A stretch of DNA of 64,000 nucleotides from Bacillota bacterium. GTDB taxonomy: Bacteria > Bacillota > SHA-98 > UBA4971. Below the pieces are notes generated by a model, which did not search any database, had not been told where the DNA came from, and saw only the letters and a program-made list of their open reading frames with translations. This document shows positions 53,193-64,000 of the stretch, one piece after another. Numbering within the stretch: the stretch's first letter is position 1; each line of letters begins with the position of its first letter. The position numbers and the translations under genes are program-made. The stretch covers positions 1 to 64,000 of the forward strand of contig JANLFY010000004.1 in assembly GCA_024653485.1 (NCBI GenBank), read 5' to 3'.

Positions 53193-53307
53193 GCTCTTAT
53201 CTAGAGAGGCGGAGGGACTGGCCCGATGAAGCCCGGCAACCGGCGACGGGAGACCCGCCTGCACGGTGCCAATTCCTGCAGAACTTTCCGTTCTGGGAGA
53301 TGAGAGA
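53193..53307 (+). promoter_or_regulatory. SAM-I riboswitch (S-box)
   Basis: All conserved blocks are present in order: CTCTTATCTAGAGAGG (P1/P2), GGAGGGACTGGCCC, GATGAAGCCCGGCAACC, the P3 arm, GGTGCCAATTCCTGCAG, and GGGAGATGAGAG closing P1. Binding of S-adenosylmethionine should favour the terminator that follows and shut off metK. Confidence 0.97.
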
Positions 53308-56480: not shown

Positions 56481-56609
56481 ACGGCCTGTCGCCAGTCATA
56501 CTCAACTCTCGTTTCCTTCGTTGACGTGCCCGCATCAGGCAAGTGCGTGTGACAACCTCGCGTCCAATCTTGCACGGGTACTTTCCGCATCTTGAGAGGT
56601 GACGCGCTC

Positions 56610-57314
56610 GTGTATTCAGCGGGAGCGAAAGGAGAAGACACGGTCGAGCGGGTCATAAAGGCCCAAGAAGAGGAAAGGCGGCGCGTGGCGAGAGACATCC
56701 ACGACGGCCCTGCTCAGATGATGGCGAATTCCATCCTGCAGCTAGAGATAGTGGAAAGGCTCATCTCTGAAGATCCTTCGCGCGCCCTGGAGGAGATCCG
56801 AGACCTCCGAAAGACCATTTCCGAGTGCCTGAGGGAGATCCGGCGTATCATTTTCGACCTGCGCCCCATGATGCTCGATGACCTCGGTCTCGCGCCTGCC
56901 CTGCGTCGTTACATCAGCGATTTCAGTCAGAGGCACGGACTGTGTGTGGAGATGAACGTTCTGGGGAAGGAAACGAGGATCGATCCCATAATCGAGCTCG
57001 TGTTGTTCAGAATCGTGCAAGAGGCGCTCCACAACGCGCGCAAGCACGCACGCGCCTCGAAGGTCGTGGTCACACTCGGGTACGGCGTGAGCGCCGTCGG
57101 CGCGAGCATAGAGGATGATGGAAAGGGCTTCGACCTCGCGGTGGTGACACGCGGTGTCGCGAAGTCCGAGGAATTCGGCCTGGCGGGAATGAAAGAGCGA
57201 GCTAAGCTCTTAGGCGGTTCTCTGGATATTGACACTGCTCCCGGGCGTGGCACCAGAGTGACTGTGAGGATCCCCATCGAAGACCCGGTGGAGGGCGGAC
57301 CGGCGGGGAGGTGA
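56610..57314 (+). CDS. Soluble DegS/NarL-class histidine kinase
   Basis: 234 residues, no membrane helix. HisKA_3 dimerisation domain with ARDIHDGPAQ (His31), then ATPase domain with N-box FRIVQEALHNARKHA, G1 DDGKGFD and G2 GLAGMKERAKLLGG. The large N-terminal sensing/coiled-coil part of DegS is missing: only about 25 residues precede the His box. GTG 56610 has AGAGGTGA upstream; TTG 56592 is an alternative. It ends 1 nt before the regulator gene, so the two are cotranscribed. The signal is unknown; it may be cytosolic or supplied by a partner. Confidence 0.9.
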   Translation: MYSAGAKGEDTVERVIKAQEEERRRVARDIHDGPAQMMANSILQLEIVERLISEDPSRALEEIRDLRKTISECLREIRRIIFDLRPMMLDDLGLAPALRRYISDFSQRHGLCVEMNVLGKETRIDPIIELVLFRIVQEALHNARKHARASKVVVTLGYGVSAVGASIEDDGKGFDLAVVTRGVAKSEEFGLAGMKERAKLLGGSLDIDTAPGRGTRVTVRIPIEDPVEGGPAGR

Positions 57315-57315
57315 C

Positions 57316-58224
57316 GTGCAGGACGTGGCTGCGCGGGGGGAAAGCGCTCGAGGATCGCGCGTCGTCAAAGTAGTGATCGCTGATTCCAGTGCTCTCTTCC
57401 GCTCGGGGATGCGCCGTGCCATCGAGGCCGAGCCTGACCTAAGAGTGGTCGGGGAGGTCGATCGCGTCGAGCGGGTGGCCGGGCTGGCCGCTTCTTGCCG
57501 TCCTGACGTGATCGTCCTGGGAGGCCTGACACAGTCCGGCCTTGTCATGTGGCGCTCCTTGCCCGGCGCGTGGACCAGCGGTAAGGAACATAACCTGGCT
57601 GAAGGCAAGGCAGGGACAGAGGCGCGGGCAGCGGAGAATACACCAGACAGCACACGCCGTGGGTGTGCGCTGGTGGGGGTGGTGGACATGAGGGACGGTG
57701 GGCGTGACGTTCTGGACGCGGTGATGGACGTGTTCGCTGCCGGGGCGCTTGGCTGCCTCGATCGCTCAGCCGATCCGGAGGACCTGGTTTGCGCCATTCG
57801 GGCGGCTTTCCGCGGACGACAGTTCGCTTCACCGCTGGTGTTGAGAGTATTGCTGGAAGGGCTTGCCAGATTGAGAGAGGTGGCGTCAGGCTTTGAAGAG
57901 GCGGTCGCGCATGCCGTGGCGAGCCCGGCGAAGCCAGGTTCATCAGACTACACGGCGGCGGAAAGCTGCGGCACCCCGCTCACCCCGAGGGAGCGCGAGG
58001 TGCTCTCTCTTGTGGCCCGCGGCAAGAGCAACCGCGCCATAGCCAGTATGCTCTCCATAAGCGAGAAGACGGTGAAGAACCACGTCAGTCACCTTCTCCA
58101 CAAGCTCGGAGCCGACAGACGCACGCAGGCCGCCATCTGGGCGATCAGCCAGGGGCTTTCCGGACCCCCGGGGTCCCAAGACGGAAGGCCCACGACCAAA
58201 GGCCCACTCCAAAATGAGTCGTGA
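57316..58224 (+). CDS. LuxR-type response regulator with degenerate receiver domain
   Basis: 302 residues. The receiver fold is recognisable (VVKVVIADSSALFRSGMRRAIEAEPDL, GALGCLDRSADPEDLVCAIRAAFRG), but the phospho-acceptor Asp is replaced by Gly69 (PDVIVLGGLTQSG), the acidic pair is reduced to one Asp (ADSS) and the conserved Lys is Arg150. A Glu/Ala/Gly-rich insertion lies at about 84-117. The C-terminal LuxR/GerE helix-turn-helix is intact (LTPREREVLSLVARGKSNRAIASMLSISEKTVKNH). GTG start with GGAGGTGA just upstream. Probably regulates the Tad operon that follows, without classical phosphorylation (inference). Confidence 0.9.
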   Translation: MQDVAARGESARGSRVVKVVIADSSALFRSGMRRAIEAEPDLRVVGEVDRVERVAGLAASCRPDVIVLGGLTQSGLVMWRSLPGAWTSGKEHNLAEGKAGTEARAAENTPDSTRRGCALVGVVDMRDGGRDVLDAVMDVFAAGALGCLDRSADPEDLVCAIRAAFRGRQFASPLVLRVLLEGLARLREVASGFEEAVAHAVASPAKPGSSDYTAAESCGTPLTPREREVLSLVARGKSNRAIASMLSISEKTVKNHVSHLLHKLGADRRTQAAIWAISQGLSGPPGSQDGRPTTKGPLQNES

Positions 58225-58302
58225 GACTGATAGGCAGGGCCTGCCATCGGTGGTAATTTTCTAGACAGGAATCGAGTGTTTCTTACAACCGAAAACGTTC
58301 TC

Positions 58303-58393
58303 CCGACAAAGGCAAACCCGTCGAAAGGCGGGGACGCAAAGCCACGGGTCTAAAGCCAGGAGGGGTTCTGGCCATGATAGCCGGGTTGCCGAA
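58303..58393 (+). promoter_or_regulatory. c-di-GMP-I riboswitch (GEMM)
   Basis: Conserved blocks: GGCAAACC (58311-58318), a GAAA tetraloop, GGGACGCAAAGCC (58330-58342), CGGGTCTAAA tetraloop-receptor segment, a variable arm, and AGCCGGGTTGCC ending at 58390. P1 forms from GGCAA (58311-58315) and TTGCC (58386-58390). It stands about 230 nt before the first Flp pilin gene and is oriented with it. Confidence 0.95.
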
Positions 58394-58407
58394 GAGAAGG
58401 GACTTTT

Positions 58408-58453
58408 GAAGCCTGCTCGTTTGGCAACGCCGACGGGCGGGCTTCGTCTTTCT
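58408..58453 (+). terminator. Expression-platform terminator of the c-di-GMP riboswitch
   Basis: GAAGCCTGCTCGT (58408-58420) pairs with ACGGGCGGGCTTC (58433-58445) using two G-T pairs, 12-nt loop, then GTCTTTCT. The loop segment TTGGCAAC (58421-58428) is complementary to GTTGCCGA (58385-58392), which includes the 3' strand of P1, so a competing antiterminator is possible. Confidence 0.82.
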
Positions 58454-58620
58454 GAAGAGTCTCTTCGGTAGGCCGCGAAAGGGCCTATGGGTCAGCCGGG
58501 TTGCACGAGACGATCGGTTCTTGCCTGACCTGACCAGACCGAGTGTTCGGGACGGTTGTCCACGGGCCTGCTTTCGAGCGGTCGTCGGGCACACGTGCAC
58601 GAAAGGAGGTGGAAGTCACG

Positions 58621-58800
58621 GTGGCGCTGCTGAAGAGGCTCTTCAAGGAAGAAGACGGGCAAGGCATGGTCGAGTACGGGCTCATCATCGCTCTTGTCGC
58701 TGTGGTTCTGATCGGTGCGCTCGTTGCTCTGAGGGGTGGTCTCCAGGGTATATTCACACGCGCGCAAACGGCTCTTGACAACCCAGAGGCTGCCCAATAG
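58621..58800 (+). CDS. Flp-type pilin, first copy
   Basis: 59 residues. Short charged leader ending EDG, predicted prepilin peptidase cut after Gly13, then QGMVEYGLIIALVAVVLIGALV with Glu at +5 and Tyr next to it, the Flp signature. Mature pilin about 46 residues. The start is GTG 58621 with AGGAGGT (58604-58610) 10 nt upstream. Too short for standard prediction in the longer frame from 58543, which overlaps the leader RNA. Structural subunit of a Tad pilus; expression governed by the c-di-GMP riboswitch. Confidence 0.9.
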   Translation: MALLKRLFKEEDGQGMVEYGLIIALVAVVLIGALVALRGGLQGIFTRAQTALDNPEAAQ

Positions 58801-58939: not shown

Positions 58940-59104
58940 ATGGTGGAACTTCTAGCCGGGTTGATGAGTGATGAGAGCGGCCAGGGCATGGCGGAGTATG
59001 CGCTGATTATTACCCTGGTAGCGGTGGTCCTGGCTGGGCTTGTCGGAGTCATAGGTGTGAGGGCGGGAGATTTGTTGGGGCGGGCGATCGACGCCATGGA
59101 ATAG
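58940..59104 (+). CDS. Flp-type pilin, second copy
   Basis: 54 residues. Leader ending ESG, predicted cut after Gly14, then QGMAEYALIITLVAVVLAGLVGVIGV. Same plan as the first pilin but different in the leader and tail. ATG 58940 has AAGGAGG (58925-58931) 8 nt upstream; GTG 58922 overlaps that site and is rejected. It may be a minor pilin or an alternative subunit. Confidence 0.88.
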   Translation: MVELLAGLMSDESGQGMAEYALIITLVAVVLAGLVGVIGVRAGDLLGRAIDAME

Positions 59105-59137
59105 GCGATAGCAGCGGTCCTGGCGCAGGTGGTAGTA

Positions 59138-59698
59138 ATGGCACGGAGCTTGGTGGCACTGTTGGTCGTGGCGGCGGGGACATGGTGTGACTGCAGGGAT
59201 AGGCGCATCCCGAATCGGCTGGTGACGGCGGGCATCGCGGCCGGCCTCGCGCTTGGACTCTTCACAGGGGGAGTCCACGGGCTGGTCGAGAGCGCTCTCG
59301 GACTCCTAACCGGGGCTGCCATTCTCTTCGTGCCCTTCGCCCTCGGATGGGTCGGCGCGGGCGACGTGAAGCTGCTGGCTGCCATCGGGGCGATTCTCGG
59401 CCCGAGGGGGGTCGCGTATTCGATCCTCTACGGTGCTGTCGCCGGCGGGGTCATGTCCGCCATCGTTCTCGTCAGGCGCCGCAGGTTGGGTATGACCTTG
59501 AACGCTATCGCCGTGGGCTTGGTGGGCTTCATCGTATACGTCATTCCCGGACTCATCGGCCGCACCAGGGGAGTCGTGCGCCCTTTCGAAGGCGCGGCGC
59601 ACGTGCCTCACTCGGGAGCCGCCATCCCTTACTCGGCCGCCATCGGGATCGGTTTGGTCATAGCTATCGCTACGGGGTTCTCGTTGGTGTTTACGTGA
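59138..59698 (+). CDS. Prepilin peptidase, TadV/CpaA type (A24)
   Basis: 186 residues, about six helices. Aspartyl protease residues: Asp18 in CDCRDRRIPN and the second Asp in WVGAGDVKLL. It lacks the N-methyltransferase domain of PilD, as TadV/CpaA do. It removes the leader from the two Flp pilins and probably from the TadE-like proteins. ATG 59138; GTG 59129 is possible. It lies 33 nt after the second pilin. Confidence 0.92.
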   Translation: MARSLVALLVVAAGTWCDCRDRRIPNRLVTAGIAAGLALGLFTGGVHGLVESALGLLTGAAILFVPFALGWVGAGDVKLLAAIGAILGPRGVAYSILYGAVAGGVMSAIVLVRRRRLGMTLNAIAVGLVGFIVYVIPGLIGRTRGVVRPFEGAAHVPHSGAAIPYSAAIGIGLVIAIATGFSLVFT

Positions 59699-59847: not shown

Positions 59848-59939
59848 CGTGCACCGGGCCGTACGCAGGCTGCAGCAGACCAGAGAGCGAGAGAGATGCG
59901 CCCTGCAGGATGGGCGAGCGAGGAGGAGGGAGGCGGAGC

Positions 59940-60347
59940 ATGCTCTGCAATGAAGGCTTTTCTCTTCCGCGAGGCGACCGCGGCCAGGCACTGGTGGAGA
60001 TGGCGATCGTACTTTCGGTTCTCCTCCTCCTGCTCACCGGGATAATCGAGTTCGGGAGGATCCTCAGCGCCCAGCTCGTCGTGGCTCATGCTTCGCGCGA
60101 GGGGGCGAGGATCGGGATCCTAGGCAAGAGCGATGCGGAGATAGTCAACAGGGTCCTCCAGGCGGCTGGCTCTCTGGATGAGAGCAGGATTGGGGTGGAC
60201 GTCACGCCCACCCCATCCGAGCGGGTGCGCGGCGCGGAATTGAGGGTGGAGGTCAGCTACCTGGTTGATATCGTGGTTCCGCTGTTGAGCGAAATGCTGA
60301 CCAATCCCTACCCGGTGCGTGGTGTCACAGTCATGCGTGTGGAGTAG
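59940..60347 (+). CDS. TadE-like pilus assembly protein
   Basis: 135 residues. N-terminal GDRGQALVEMAIVLSVLLLLLTGIIEFGRILSAQ is the TadE signature: a Flp-like processing motif (Gly, then Glu at +5), one membrane helix and an FGR segment. The periplasmic remainder is a small beta domain. ATG 59940 lies after a run of GGAGG-like sites (GGGAGGCGGAGC). A minor pilin-like component of the Tad system. Confidence 0.88.
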   Translation: MLCNEGFSLPRGDRGQALVEMAIVLSVLLLLLTGIIEFGRILSAQLVVAHASREGARIGILGKSDAEIVNRVLQAAGSLDESRIGVDVTPTPSERVRGAELRVEVSYLVDIVVPLLSEMLTNPYPVRGVTVMRVE

Positions 60348-60400
60348 CGTCCACTCCGAGTCGGGCGAACGGACGAACTGACGAGGAGGTGGCCGGGCCG

Positions 60401-61351
60401 ATGGAGCCGATGGACACGGCCGCGTGCGAAGGGGAGAACCCGTTGGATGAGAGAGGAAGCGTCATAGTGTTCGTGGCTCTCGCGCTGACTGTCTTGCTCG
60501 GTTTGGCTGCGCTCGTGGTCGACCTGGGCGTCCTCTATTTCAACAGGGTGGCGCTTTCCAATGCGGCAGACGCCGCAGCCCTCGCCGGCGTGCAGGAGCT
60601 GCCCGAGAACCCCGGTCGTGCGGAGGCAGCGGCGGTGTCGTACGCGGTGAAGAACGGAGTGGAGGAAAGCAGGGTGACCACGGTCCTGACGGACAGCAGG
60701 AGCATCAAGGTCACCGTGTCCCGCACCGTTCCGCTAGGCTTCGCCAGGATCTTCGGCATGGCATCCAGTGACGTCCGCGCGAGCGCCAAGGCCACGATAG
60801 GCGCGGCCAGTGCAGTGCGCGGAGCGGCCCCGTTCGTCGTTCCCGACCAGGAGTTCTTGTACGGCGAGCAGTACGTCTTGAAGTACGGTGGCGGCGACGG
60901 AGAACACGGGAACTTCGCCGCCCTCGCCCTGGGCGGATGGGGCGCAGCCACCTACGAGAACAACATCAAGTATGGCTACCAGGGCTGGTTGCGCGTTGAC
61001 GAATGGGAGGAGGTGTGGCTGGACACGGAGCCTGGCAATATGTCCGGCCCGACGGTGCGCGGGGTCACGTATAGGATATCCCAGTGCGACCACTTTCCGC
61101 CTTGCACGTTCGATCATTGCGCGAGAGCCTGCCCGAGAGTCGTGGTGGTGCCGGTGGCTGATTTCGACCCGGAAGAGCTTCACGGGCGAAGCCAAGTACG
61201 CTTGGTGGGGTTCGCCGCGTTCTTCCTCGAGGGTGTGTGGGGTCACGGGAACGAATGCGAAGTCACGGGCAGGTTCCTCAGATGGGTGGCGGATGGAGAG
61301 CCTGGCGGCGCGGGGTACTATGGCCTGGTCGCCAGCAGGCTGGAGGAATAG
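60401..61351 (+). CDS. TadG-like pilus assembly protein
   Basis: 316 residues. DERGSVIVFVALALTVLLGLAALVVDLGVLYFNRVALSNAADAAALAG is the N-terminal TadG/TadE-like anchor (Tad-N domain) followed by an extracytoplasmic domain. It contains a Cys-rich segment (CDHFPPCTFDHCARAC) which may be disulphide-bonded. ATG 60401 has GGAGGT (60385-60390) 10 nt upstream; GTG 60389 overlaps it. About a third shorter than many TadG proteins and with no recognisable vWA domain. Confidence 0.82.
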   Translation: MEPMDTAACEGENPLDERGSVIVFVALALTVLLGLAALVVDLGVLYFNRVALSNAADAAALAGVQELPENPGRAEAAAVSYAVKNGVEESRVTTVLTDSRSIKVTVSRTVPLGFARIFGMASSDVRASAKATIGAASAVRGAAPFVVPDQEFLYGEQYVLKYGGGDGEHGNFAALALGGWGAATYENNIKYGYQGWLRVDEWEEVWLDTEPGNMSGPTVRGVTYRISQCDHFPPCTFDHCARACPRVVVVPVADFDPEELHGRSQVRLVGFAAFFLEGVWGHGNECEVTGRFLRWVADGEPGGAGYYGLVASRLEE

Positions 61352-61495: not shown

Positions 61496-62467
61496 ATGAA
61501 GGGCGGTAGGCTCACGATAGTGCTCGCCCTGATTCCCGGGCTCTTAGCTGCCGTTATGACCTACGTGTATATCAGCAACGCGGCGAAGCCCAAACCCGTC
61601 AGCGTGAAGAACGTGCCGGTGATTGCCGCCAAGGTGACGATAGCGCCCCGCACCAAGATCACGCCTGACATGATCTACGTGAAAGAAGTGCCAGAGACCG
61701 CCGTACACGCGAGGACGGCGCGCGACGCGGAGCACGTAATCGGGTTGTTCACCAAGCACGAGATACTCGAGGGCGAGCCTATAGTCATGGACAGGCTGTT
61801 CGGTGAGGATGAACCGGTGGGCCTCGTGTCTTCAGTCCCTCCCGACAAGCGGGCCGTGACCATCGCGGTCAATGAGGTGGTTGGGGTGGCGGGATTCGTG
61901 AAGCCGGGCGACCGCGTTGATGTCGTCGTGACCATGAGCGGTGACGCAGCGACAGGAAACGTGGCCTTCACCGCTCTCGAGGACGTAGAGGTCCTTGCGG
62001 TGGCGCAGGATACCGAGGACAAGAACCAGGGCAAAGCGAAGGTTTCCACAAGCGTCACTCTGGCCGTTACTCCGTCCGAAGCGGAGAAGCTGGCTCTCGC
62101 CGAAGAGATGGGGAGAATACGTCTTGCGCTGCGCCCCATCGTCGCCTCCGTTGCGAAGAGTTCGGGCGTTGTCGCCCGCGATCTTTTGAGAGGGGTTAAA
62201 GGTTGGTCGCCTCCCAGACCGGCAGATGAGGGCACCCCGCGGTCCGGTGCACCTGTGGTCTCCCCTGGGACGCAGTCCCAGGGACCCGCCGTGACCATAA
62301 CGCGCCAGGCTCCCCCAACCCCTGTGGCGCACGGGCCGTCATCGCTTCCTCCTCAATCCGCCGGCACGGTCATTCCCATTCCCGAGCCCCAGGTGGTGGA
62401 GGTCATCAAGGGATCACAAAGGACCTTTGTCTCCTTGGGTGATAGCGGGGAGGCGACCAAACAATGA
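61496..62467 (+). CDS. cpaB: Flp pilus assembly protein CpaB/RcpC
   Basis: 323 residues. One N-terminal membrane helix (IVLALIPGLLAAVMTYVYI), then a SAF domain (VPVIAAKVTIAPRTKITPDMIYVKEVP) and a RcpC/CpaB core (DKRAVTIAVNEVVGVAGFVKPGDRVDVVVTM), and a Pro/Ser/Gln-rich tail. In Tad systems it sits in the periplasm and works with the secretin, probably contacting peptidoglycan. ATG 61496 with GGGGAGG upstream. Its stop overlaps the secretin gene start (ATGA), so translation is coupled. Confidence 0.93.
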   Translation: MKGGRLTIVLALIPGLLAAVMTYVYISNAAKPKPVSVKNVPVIAAKVTIAPRTKITPDMIYVKEVPETAVHARTARDAEHVIGLFTKHEILEGEPIVMDRLFGEDEPVGLVSSVPPDKRAVTIAVNEVVGVAGFVKPGDRVDVVVTMSGDAATGNVAFTALEDVEVLAVAQDTEDKNQGKAKVSTSVTLAVTPSEAEKLALAEEMGRIRLALRPIVASVAKSSGVVARDLLRGVKGWSPPRPADEGTPRSGAPVVSPGTQSQGPAVTITRQAPPTPVAHGPSSLPPQSAGTVIPIPEPQVVEVIKGSQRTFVSLGDSGEATKQ

Positions 62468-64000
62468 TTTTACCTTGTTACCGCAGTGGAAGGAGATCGG
62501 TCAGTCTGAGAAGGTCCGCCCTCGTGGCCGTGGCTATCGCCTCGCTACTCATGGCGACCCCGGCCTCGGCCGCAAATGAAACGGTCGGCGCCTGGCAGGC
62601 CCAGCCGGAGCAGGCACAAGGGCAAGGACCGACACCACAGGCGTTGCAGCCAAGCGCGGCCGTGGCGAACCGCACTTTCGCAGTGGTGGTCGGGGAGTCG
62701 CGGATCCTACAGGTCAACGACCTTGTGAGAGTGGCGGTGGCCGATCCCAGTGTCGCCGATGTCGTTGTCGTGTCCAAGACAGAGGTCATAGTGAACGGGA
62801 AAAAGGAGGGTCGGACCACCCTCCACGTCTGGGACGCCTCGGGTCGCTCGAGCTACAACGTCCGAGTCTGCGTCGACAACGCCGATCTCACCCGCGAGAT
62901 CGAAGAGACCATCGGGATGAGCGGCGTCACCGCGAGGTTCGCCAGATCGACGCTGCTCCTCGATGGCTTCGTCGAGACCGATGGAGATTCCGAGAGGGCC
63001 GAGAGGATAGCGAAGGCCTACGCGGACAAGGTGGTCAACCTCTTGACGGTTAGGCGCCCTGCCCTCCCACCTCCGCCGCCCGCCATCGATGCCGTGGAGG
63101 TCGAGTCGGCCATCGGTGTTCAGGGCGTATCCGTACGGGTAGTCAAGGACACCGTGATCCTGGAGGGACAGGTTGAGAGCGCTCTTGACGCGGAGCGAGC
63201 CGAGAAGATCTCGAGGATCTTCACGGCCAACGTGCTGAGCTTCGTCTCGGTGAGCCAGCCTCTGCCCCCTTCCGCCACAGGTGCGAGCGAGGAGGATGGT
63301 GAGCCGGTGGCTGCCGACCAGGCCGCGCCCCAGGTTCAAGGGTCGGCTTCGGCGGGTGAGGCTGGCGGAGCGAGCGGTGAGCGCGACGTCAAGGACGGAG
63401 CGGAGAAGGGGCCCGCGCAGTCATTGGAAGAATCAGCTGGCGCATCCGAGCCCGCCGCGCGCGAGCCCTCAGCAGTGCCCGAGGAGATCGACCCCGATGC
63501 GGCGCTGCGCGACATGGTGGCGGCGGCTGTGCGGGACCCCGCCGTCGAGATCACCGTGGTCAAGGGCACGGTGCTCCTCGAAGGACTGGTGCAGAGCGAA
63601 TATGCCAAGCTGCGCGCGGAGACGGTGGCGCGGCTGTACTCTCCAAAGGTAGTGAGCATCATCCGCGTCGAGGAGGTTGCACCCGCACAAGCGGCTCCGG
63701 CCCATCAAGCGCCAAAGCCGCATCAGGAACCACAGCAGCCGGAGACGCCTGCGCCCGCGCCTGGGCCCGCGCCCGCCGCGCCCGTGCCCGCGCCTGGGCC
63801 CGGGCCTGCGCCAGAGGTCGCGCCGGAGTCGCCGGCTCAGAAGGTTGCAGCAGAAGAGCCGCGACTCGAGGACAGGGTCAGCGAGTACATCGGCGTGCCC
63901 ACCGTGAGGGTGCGGTCGGTTGACGGCAAGCTGCTCCTCGAGGGCAGCGTCGCGTCGCAGAACGAACTCGAAAGGGTCAACAAGATAGCGGGCATGTTCA
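62464..64000 (+). CDS. cpaC: CpaC/RcpA-type secretin, N-terminal part, cut by the window end
   Basis: At least 512 residues, open at 64000. Signal peptide RRSALVAVAIASLLMATPASA. Residues about 70-138 form the pilus secretin N-domain (RTFAVVVGESRILQVNDLVRVAVADPSVADVVVV). Then BON-like repeats start near residues 141, 209, 343 and 467, each with a VxxVxxxxxLLEGxV core; typical CpaC has one. A Pro/Ala-rich linker (about 420-465, PAPGPAP type) separates repeats 3 and 4. The secretin barrel domain must lie beyond the window. It forms the outer-membrane pore of the Tad pilus. ATG overlaps the cpaB stop; GGGGAGG is 9 nt upstream. Confidence 0.85.
   Translation, partial: MILPCYRSGRRSVSLRRSALVAVAIASLLMATPASAANETVGAWQAQPEQAQGQGPTPQALQPSAAVANRTFAVVVGESRILQVNDLVRVAVADPSVADVVVVSKTEVIVNGKKEGRTTLHVWDASGRSSYNVRVCVDNADLTREIEETIGMSGVTARFARSTLLLDGFVETDGDSERAERIAKAYADKVVNLLTVRRPALPPPPPAIDAVEVESAIGVQGVSVRVVKDTVILEGQVESALDAERAEKISRIFTANVLSFVSVSQPLPPSATGASEEDGEPVAADQAAPQVQGSASAGEAGGASGERDVKDGAEKGPAQSLEESAGASEPAAREPSAVPEEIDPDAALRDMVAAAVRDPAVEITVVKGTVLLEGLVQSEYAKLRAETVARLYSPKVVSIIRVEEVAPAQAAPAHQAPKPHQEPQQPETPAPAPGPAPAAPVPAPGPGPAPEVAPESPAQKVAAEEPRLEDRVSEYIGVPTVRVRSVDGKLLLEGSVASQNELERVNKIAGMF

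Follow-up and report, generated by a model that had tools for sequence, protein, structure and literature searches.

The window, meaning here the whole stretch of 64,000 nucleotides of Bacillota DNA that was analysed, closes with a Tad pilus operon. As the original prediction held, the operon stands downstream of a c-di-GMP riboswitch, and it is complete, comprising two Flp pilins, TadV, TadE, a TadG-like protein, RcpC, a secretin, TadZ, TadA, TadB and TadC. Its genes are arranged as follows:

58621-58800, + strand: flp, a Flp/Fap pilin (PF04964) with a GTG start
58940-59104, + strand: second Flp-like pilin, below the Pfam cut-off
59129-59698, + strand: prepilin peptidase TadV (PF01478)
59910-60347, + strand: TadE (PF07811)
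60389-61351, + strand: TadG-like protein (PF13400, PF09977)
61496-62467, + strand: RcpC/CpaB (PF16976)
62464-64000, + strand: RcpA-type secretin, extending beyond the window, with tadZ, tadA, tadB and tadC next in the contig

The secretin, which runs from 62464 into the contig beyond the window, is full (802 aa with a BON domain) and suggests an outer membrane in this Bacillota genome. Immediately ahead of the riboswitch sit a histidine kinase and a LuxR-type regulator (56592-58224, + strand), which are likely to be a second input to the pilus promoter. A sigma-70 promoter scan gave no match above threshold. The kinase and regulator also occur in a second-genus genome (L222), and the order kinase, regulator, aptamer, Flp and prepilin peptidase is retained in a genome of the second genus. 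Conservation was assessed in 11 genomes from two genera of one uncultured Bacillota family, the relatives with matching contigs being uncultured Bacillota MAGs. Further upstream, a SAM-I riboswitch (RF00162, 92.2 bits; 53194-53306, + strand) precedes an ORF from about 53343 that resembles S-adenosylmethionine synthetase by sequence.

Between the regulator and flp lies a long leader, whose elements are listed here together with the target site inside flp:

58298-58307, + strand: P1 5' strand (P), by which P1 can be extended (58298-58302 with 58394-58398, plus 58304-58305 with 58390-58391)
58302-58394, + strand: class I c-di-GMP riboswitch aptamer (GEMM-I)
58382-58401, + strand: A, the P1 3' strand plus linker, 5' side of the antiterminator, pairing with 58412-58432
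58408-58445, + strand: intrinsic-terminator hairpin of 12 pairs (58408-58419 with 58434-58445), with compensatory, both-sides changes in relatives
58453-58471, + strand: anti-start box A', pairing either with 58388-58397 (10 pairs, via 58460-58469) or with flp
58471-58476, + strand: X, pairing with X' in the leader consensus fold
58563-58577, + strand: A'2, a second anti-start copy, clear and covarying in most relatives and degenerate in the window
58578-58589, + strand: X' (58578-58583) and P' (58584-58589, GTCGGG), a conserved box immediately preceding the ribosome-binding site
58602-58610, + strand: flp ribosome-binding site AAGGAGGT, assigned by sequence and conserved in relatives
58627-58645, + strand: flp codons 3-9, the target of A'

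The aptamer is complete, as originally described. It matches the RF01051 covariance model over its full length at 90.2 bits (gathering threshold 35), with P1, P2, P3 and the GAAA tetraloop in place, and the 3.0 Mb genome contains no other copy. An Rfam scan labels the same segment (58302-58394) c-di-GMP-I-GGC (RF03167; 80.6 bits, E 1.4e-17), which is the best match by E-value within the clan. This assignment was rejected. The base between the two ligand guanines (58338), which we take to be the defining position of the GGC variant, aligns as A in the window (GACGCAAAG) and as G in the RF03167 consensus (GACGCGAAG), and RF01051 scores more bits. On these two grounds the aptamer is expected, from its sequence, to bind c-di-GMP canonically. 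In the alignment the recognition bases match those of the canonical class, with positions numbered after the Vc2 structure. Judged by domain matches, the genome encodes four GGDEF proteins above the Pfam cut-off and one PilZ protein, and the GGDEF matches indicate that the organism makes c-di-GMP.

A terminator had been predicted to follow the aptamer, and the 12-pair hairpin is indeed present and stable (about -26 kcal/mol), though with a poor T tract in the window (GTCTTTCTG, 58446-58454) that is clear in the second genus (for example TTTCTTTTT). Termination in the window may therefore be leaky. The terminator loop (58420-58433) contains TTGGCAAC, and all eight pairs, one a G-T, proposed between 58385-58392 and 58421-58428 can form. 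The accompanying view that these pairs simply enclose the 5' arm of the terminator understates the antiterminator, because the helix itself pairs with that arm. In the fold predicted at 58432 the eight pairs belong to a longer antiterminator (58382-58401 with 58412-58432) that includes CGG:CCG at the P3 base and, with the terminator 5' arm, GAG:CTC and GGG:CCT (one G-T). The P1 3' strand thus pairs with both the terminator 5' arm and the loop in a helix exclusive with P1, as in switches of the Cd1 type. The duplex between A and the terminator arm and loop has an energy of -17.2 kcal/mol, a strength that 6 duplexes from 5000 dinucleotide shuffles and 19 from 4000 random windows also reached. 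Seven of the eight pairs (58385-58391 with 58422-58428) are invariant in 11/11 genomes, the eighth (58392 with 58421) being lost in the second genus, so the finding that would have counted against the original prediction, relatives without this complementarity, was not encountered. Within the family almost no variation is seen where A pairs with the terminator loop or with A', so these pairs are conserved rather than covarying.

The order of events at the level of transcription is supported by folding energies computed with ViennaRNA at successive transcript ends. Structures containing P1 lie 0.9 kcal/mol above the ensemble at 58398 and 4.2 kcal/mol above it at 58424. With the polymerase between 58428 and about 58436 they lie 7-10 kcal/mol above the ensemble and the antiterminator is dominant, and at 58440 the difference is 5.2 kcal/mol. 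With the terminator fully transcribed (58450), P1 together with the terminator beats the antiterminator by 4.9 kcal/mol. This reversal points to a kinetic OFF switch in which the ligand must hold P1 before about 58428. Without ligand, the terminator 5' arm and loop would capture A as soon as they are made, in an antiterminator that is transient yet would persist until the polymerase has passed. With ligand, A would be held in P1, the terminator would fold and transcription would stop. The claim that high c-di-GMP lowers expression is consistent with the folding energies of both states, and as a model the OFF prediction is well supported. We infer the identity of the ligand and the direction of the response.

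The earlier reading overlooked the second half of the conserved leader and, with it, a covarying box that is complementary to the start of flp. Beyond the terminator the leader has mostly diverged between the two genera, the near-unchanged boxes being 58458-58475 and 58577-58591. The first of these falls largely within A', which in the window forms 19 uninterrupted pairs with flp codons 3-9 (58453-58471 with 58627-58645). Aligned without gaps across the 11 genomes, this duplex has a core of 17 pairs, with standard pairs in 99.5% of cells; when the partner was slid by 1-3 bases only 48-61% were paired. Two pairs are changed on both sides, the covariation score is reached by 0/500 shuffles, and the changes that preserve pairing with flp would break a self-hairpin of A'. 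For flp the longest run with A' is 19 pairs, while 11 further genes in the window reach 8-10. Synonymous recoding of flp gave weaker duplexes at p 0.006-0.096, a modest effect indicating that protein constraint accounts for part of the complementarity. A'2, nearer the ribosome-binding site than A', shows two both-sides changes with flp among relatives. The same A' also retains its 10 pairs with the aptamer strand (58388-58397 with 58460-58469) in 11/11 genomes. These complementarities are evident from sequence and conservation. Matches to A' with 0-2 mismatches at a pilin leader were found only in the two genera, and scattered matches elsewhere with 2-3 mismatches are at the level of a reversed-pattern control. 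Box A' is confined to one uncultured Bacillota family.

A short hairpin (CACAC...GTGTG, 58591-58612, + strand) flanks the ribosome-binding site of flp; among relatives it has G-T variants as well as compensating ones, and it is reduced in the window. The stretch 58515-58610 (+ strand), partly conserved between the two genera, weakly resembles RF03033 (NLPC-P60 RNA), mainly through CGGTTCTTGCCTGACCTGAC; at 18 bits against a gathering threshold of 53.7 the resemblance was taken as chance. P' is complementary to the P1 5' strand at 58302-58307, for which it is an alternative partner, and X' is complementary to 58471-58476. A latch that closes the full-length leader through P:P', A:A' and X:X' is attractive on the leader alone but loses to the A':flp duplex or to other folds once about 60 nt of coding sequence are added, and is therefore kept only as a possible intermediate.

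The conserved A' box probably provides a second, translational platform by covering the flp start. In read-through RNA, A' would pair either with A or with flp codons 3-9. By keeping A in P1, c-di-GMP would leave A' free to cover the flp start, inside the ribosome footprint. Without ligand, A would take A' and the flp start would stay open; a free A would encounter A' about 160 bases before flp is transcribed. In that case transcription and translation would be controlled in the same direction. At 58470, a fold with A:A' and the terminator gains 5.6 kcal/mol over one with P1 and the terminator. In 7/10 genomes opening of the flp start region costs 5-9 kcal/mol more when A' is free, blocking of A' giving no easing in the other three. 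At equilibrium, in the window RNA without ligand, A':flp is preferred over A:A' by about 7 kcal/mol, so control at this level could be constitutive. The equilibrium folds of relatives range from A':flp to A:A'. Given that the window prefers A':flp and relatives fall on either side, coupling would depend on kinetics and ribosome loading, and we put forward the coupling of translation to the ligand as a hypothesis. On balance, we favour a model in which the class I riboswitch represses the Tad operon at high c-di-GMP on two levels, transcription and translation. A more specific version is tentative and in our judgement falls somewhat short of an even chance: that one aptamer strand serves two platforms in series, first as antiterminator and then, in the read-through mRNA, as a competitor that removes A' from the pilin codons. 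Such a double role would account for the likeness of the P1 3' strand, GCCGAAGAGA, to the start of the gene under its control (GCTGAAGAGR), which it would imitate.

The strongest competing explanation is that only transcription is controlled, by an OFF switch of the Cd1 kind, with A' acting constitutively in basal translation or mRNA stability and insensitive to c-di-GMP. Antiterminator and terminator are enough for control, even without ligand the window RNA folds at equilibrium into the A':flp duplex, and the pilin-linked leaders of other families are without the A' box. This account leaves unexplained the 10 invariant pairs between A' and the aptamer strand, kept in two genera despite the diverged surrounding leader, and we regard it as a serious contender that is nevertheless rather unlikely. 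An ON switch, with ligand promoting read-through, for instance if helices of A' or P' formed a larger terminator or block in the unbound state, is improbable. The full-length leader before the flp coding sequence does prefer a fold with both P1 strands held by A' and P', and c-di-GMP turns on C. difficile pili, though via a class II element (PMC6200980). However, no T tract follows the A:A' helix, and the sole terminator-like hairpin is compatible with P1 and in competition with the antiterminator, the arrangement of an OFF switch. Least credible of all, and very improbable, is that the terminator-loop and A' complementarities arose by chance or merely follow from a pilin start that is palindromic and constrained by its protein: the flp codons AAG AGG CTC TTC are palindromic and the protein motif LLKRLF is conserved, but the shuffle and random-window tests, the both-sides changes at two A':flp and two A'2:flp pairs, and a second genus that breaks the palindrome of the box while the pairs remain all speak against it.

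Aptamers linked to pilins are not restricted to this family. A survey sample of 101 genomes gave an aptamer match in 85, and in at least eight other families an aptamer stands ahead of a Flp pilin (loci L012, L016, L018, L029, L031, L044, L082 and L088). The energy reversal from antiterminator to terminator also occurs in pilin-linked aptamers of other families. The A:T duplex is significant in L016 and L029 and borderline in L018 (p 0.051); it is also significant in L059, where no Flp gene was found within 550 bases, and not significant in L044, L012, L082 or L088. Some aptamers upstream of Flp pilins in other families share the design described here. Complementarity between leader and flp was not significant in the other pilin-linked aptamers. 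At another locus (L042, G006:C102) two tandem class I aptamers stand about 180 bases apart before one gene.

The direction of control had been described as opposite to the common picture of c-di-GMP, which is overstated. In C. difficile class I c-di-GMP switches are uniformly OFF, with a putative adhesin among the repressed genes, while class II switches, including that of pilA1, are ON (PMC6200980). In Caulobacter, moderate c-di-GMP raises Tad piliation and peak c-di-GMP lowers it by causing retraction of the Tad pilus (PMC6581867). Given the class I rule and this retraction, the predicted direction does not run against known biology. Among the closest known systems is Cd1 of the C. difficile flgB operon, for which NMR indicates that terminator and aptamer coexist and compete with an A:T antiterminator that later refolds (PMC9262584). 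Cd1 shares with the present locus the class I aptamer, the P-A-T-H strand order, the transient A:T antiterminator and the OFF direction, proven for Cd1 (PMC9262584) and predicted here. It differs in controlling flagella rather than a pilus operon, and beyond its terminator the present leader has an extra conserved box, able to pair with either the aptamer strand or the first codons. The pilM riboswitch of Geobacter metallireducens (GEMM-Ib) also places a GEMM-I fold upstream of pilus genes, but it is a cGAMP ON switch with A within the terminator (PMC9262584), whereas here A lies within the antiterminator and the genes are Tad rather than PilMNOPQ. The C. difficile pilA1 riboswitch likewise precedes type IV pilin genes and responds to c-di-GMP, with another aptamer class and the ON direction (PMC6200980). 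Bc1 of Bacillus thuringiensis resembles the present leader in its long expression platform, for which control of both transcription and translation has been proposed (PMC11218506); it has two terminators and an incoherent response, in contrast to one terminator and a separate anti-start box acting in the same direction if our model holds. A search of the open-access literature found no paper on a c-di-GMP riboswitch controlling Tad or Flp genes.

If the model is correct, an adhesive pilus system in Bacillota would be repressed by c-di-GMP directly, through RNA alone, and the occurrence of aptamers next to pilin genes in other families suggests that c-di-GMP and Tad pili are directly connected more widely. 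The second platform, if real, would be a compact case in which one aptamer strand controls termination and then translation by mimicking the first codons of its target, an arrangement amenable to tests with short RNAs.
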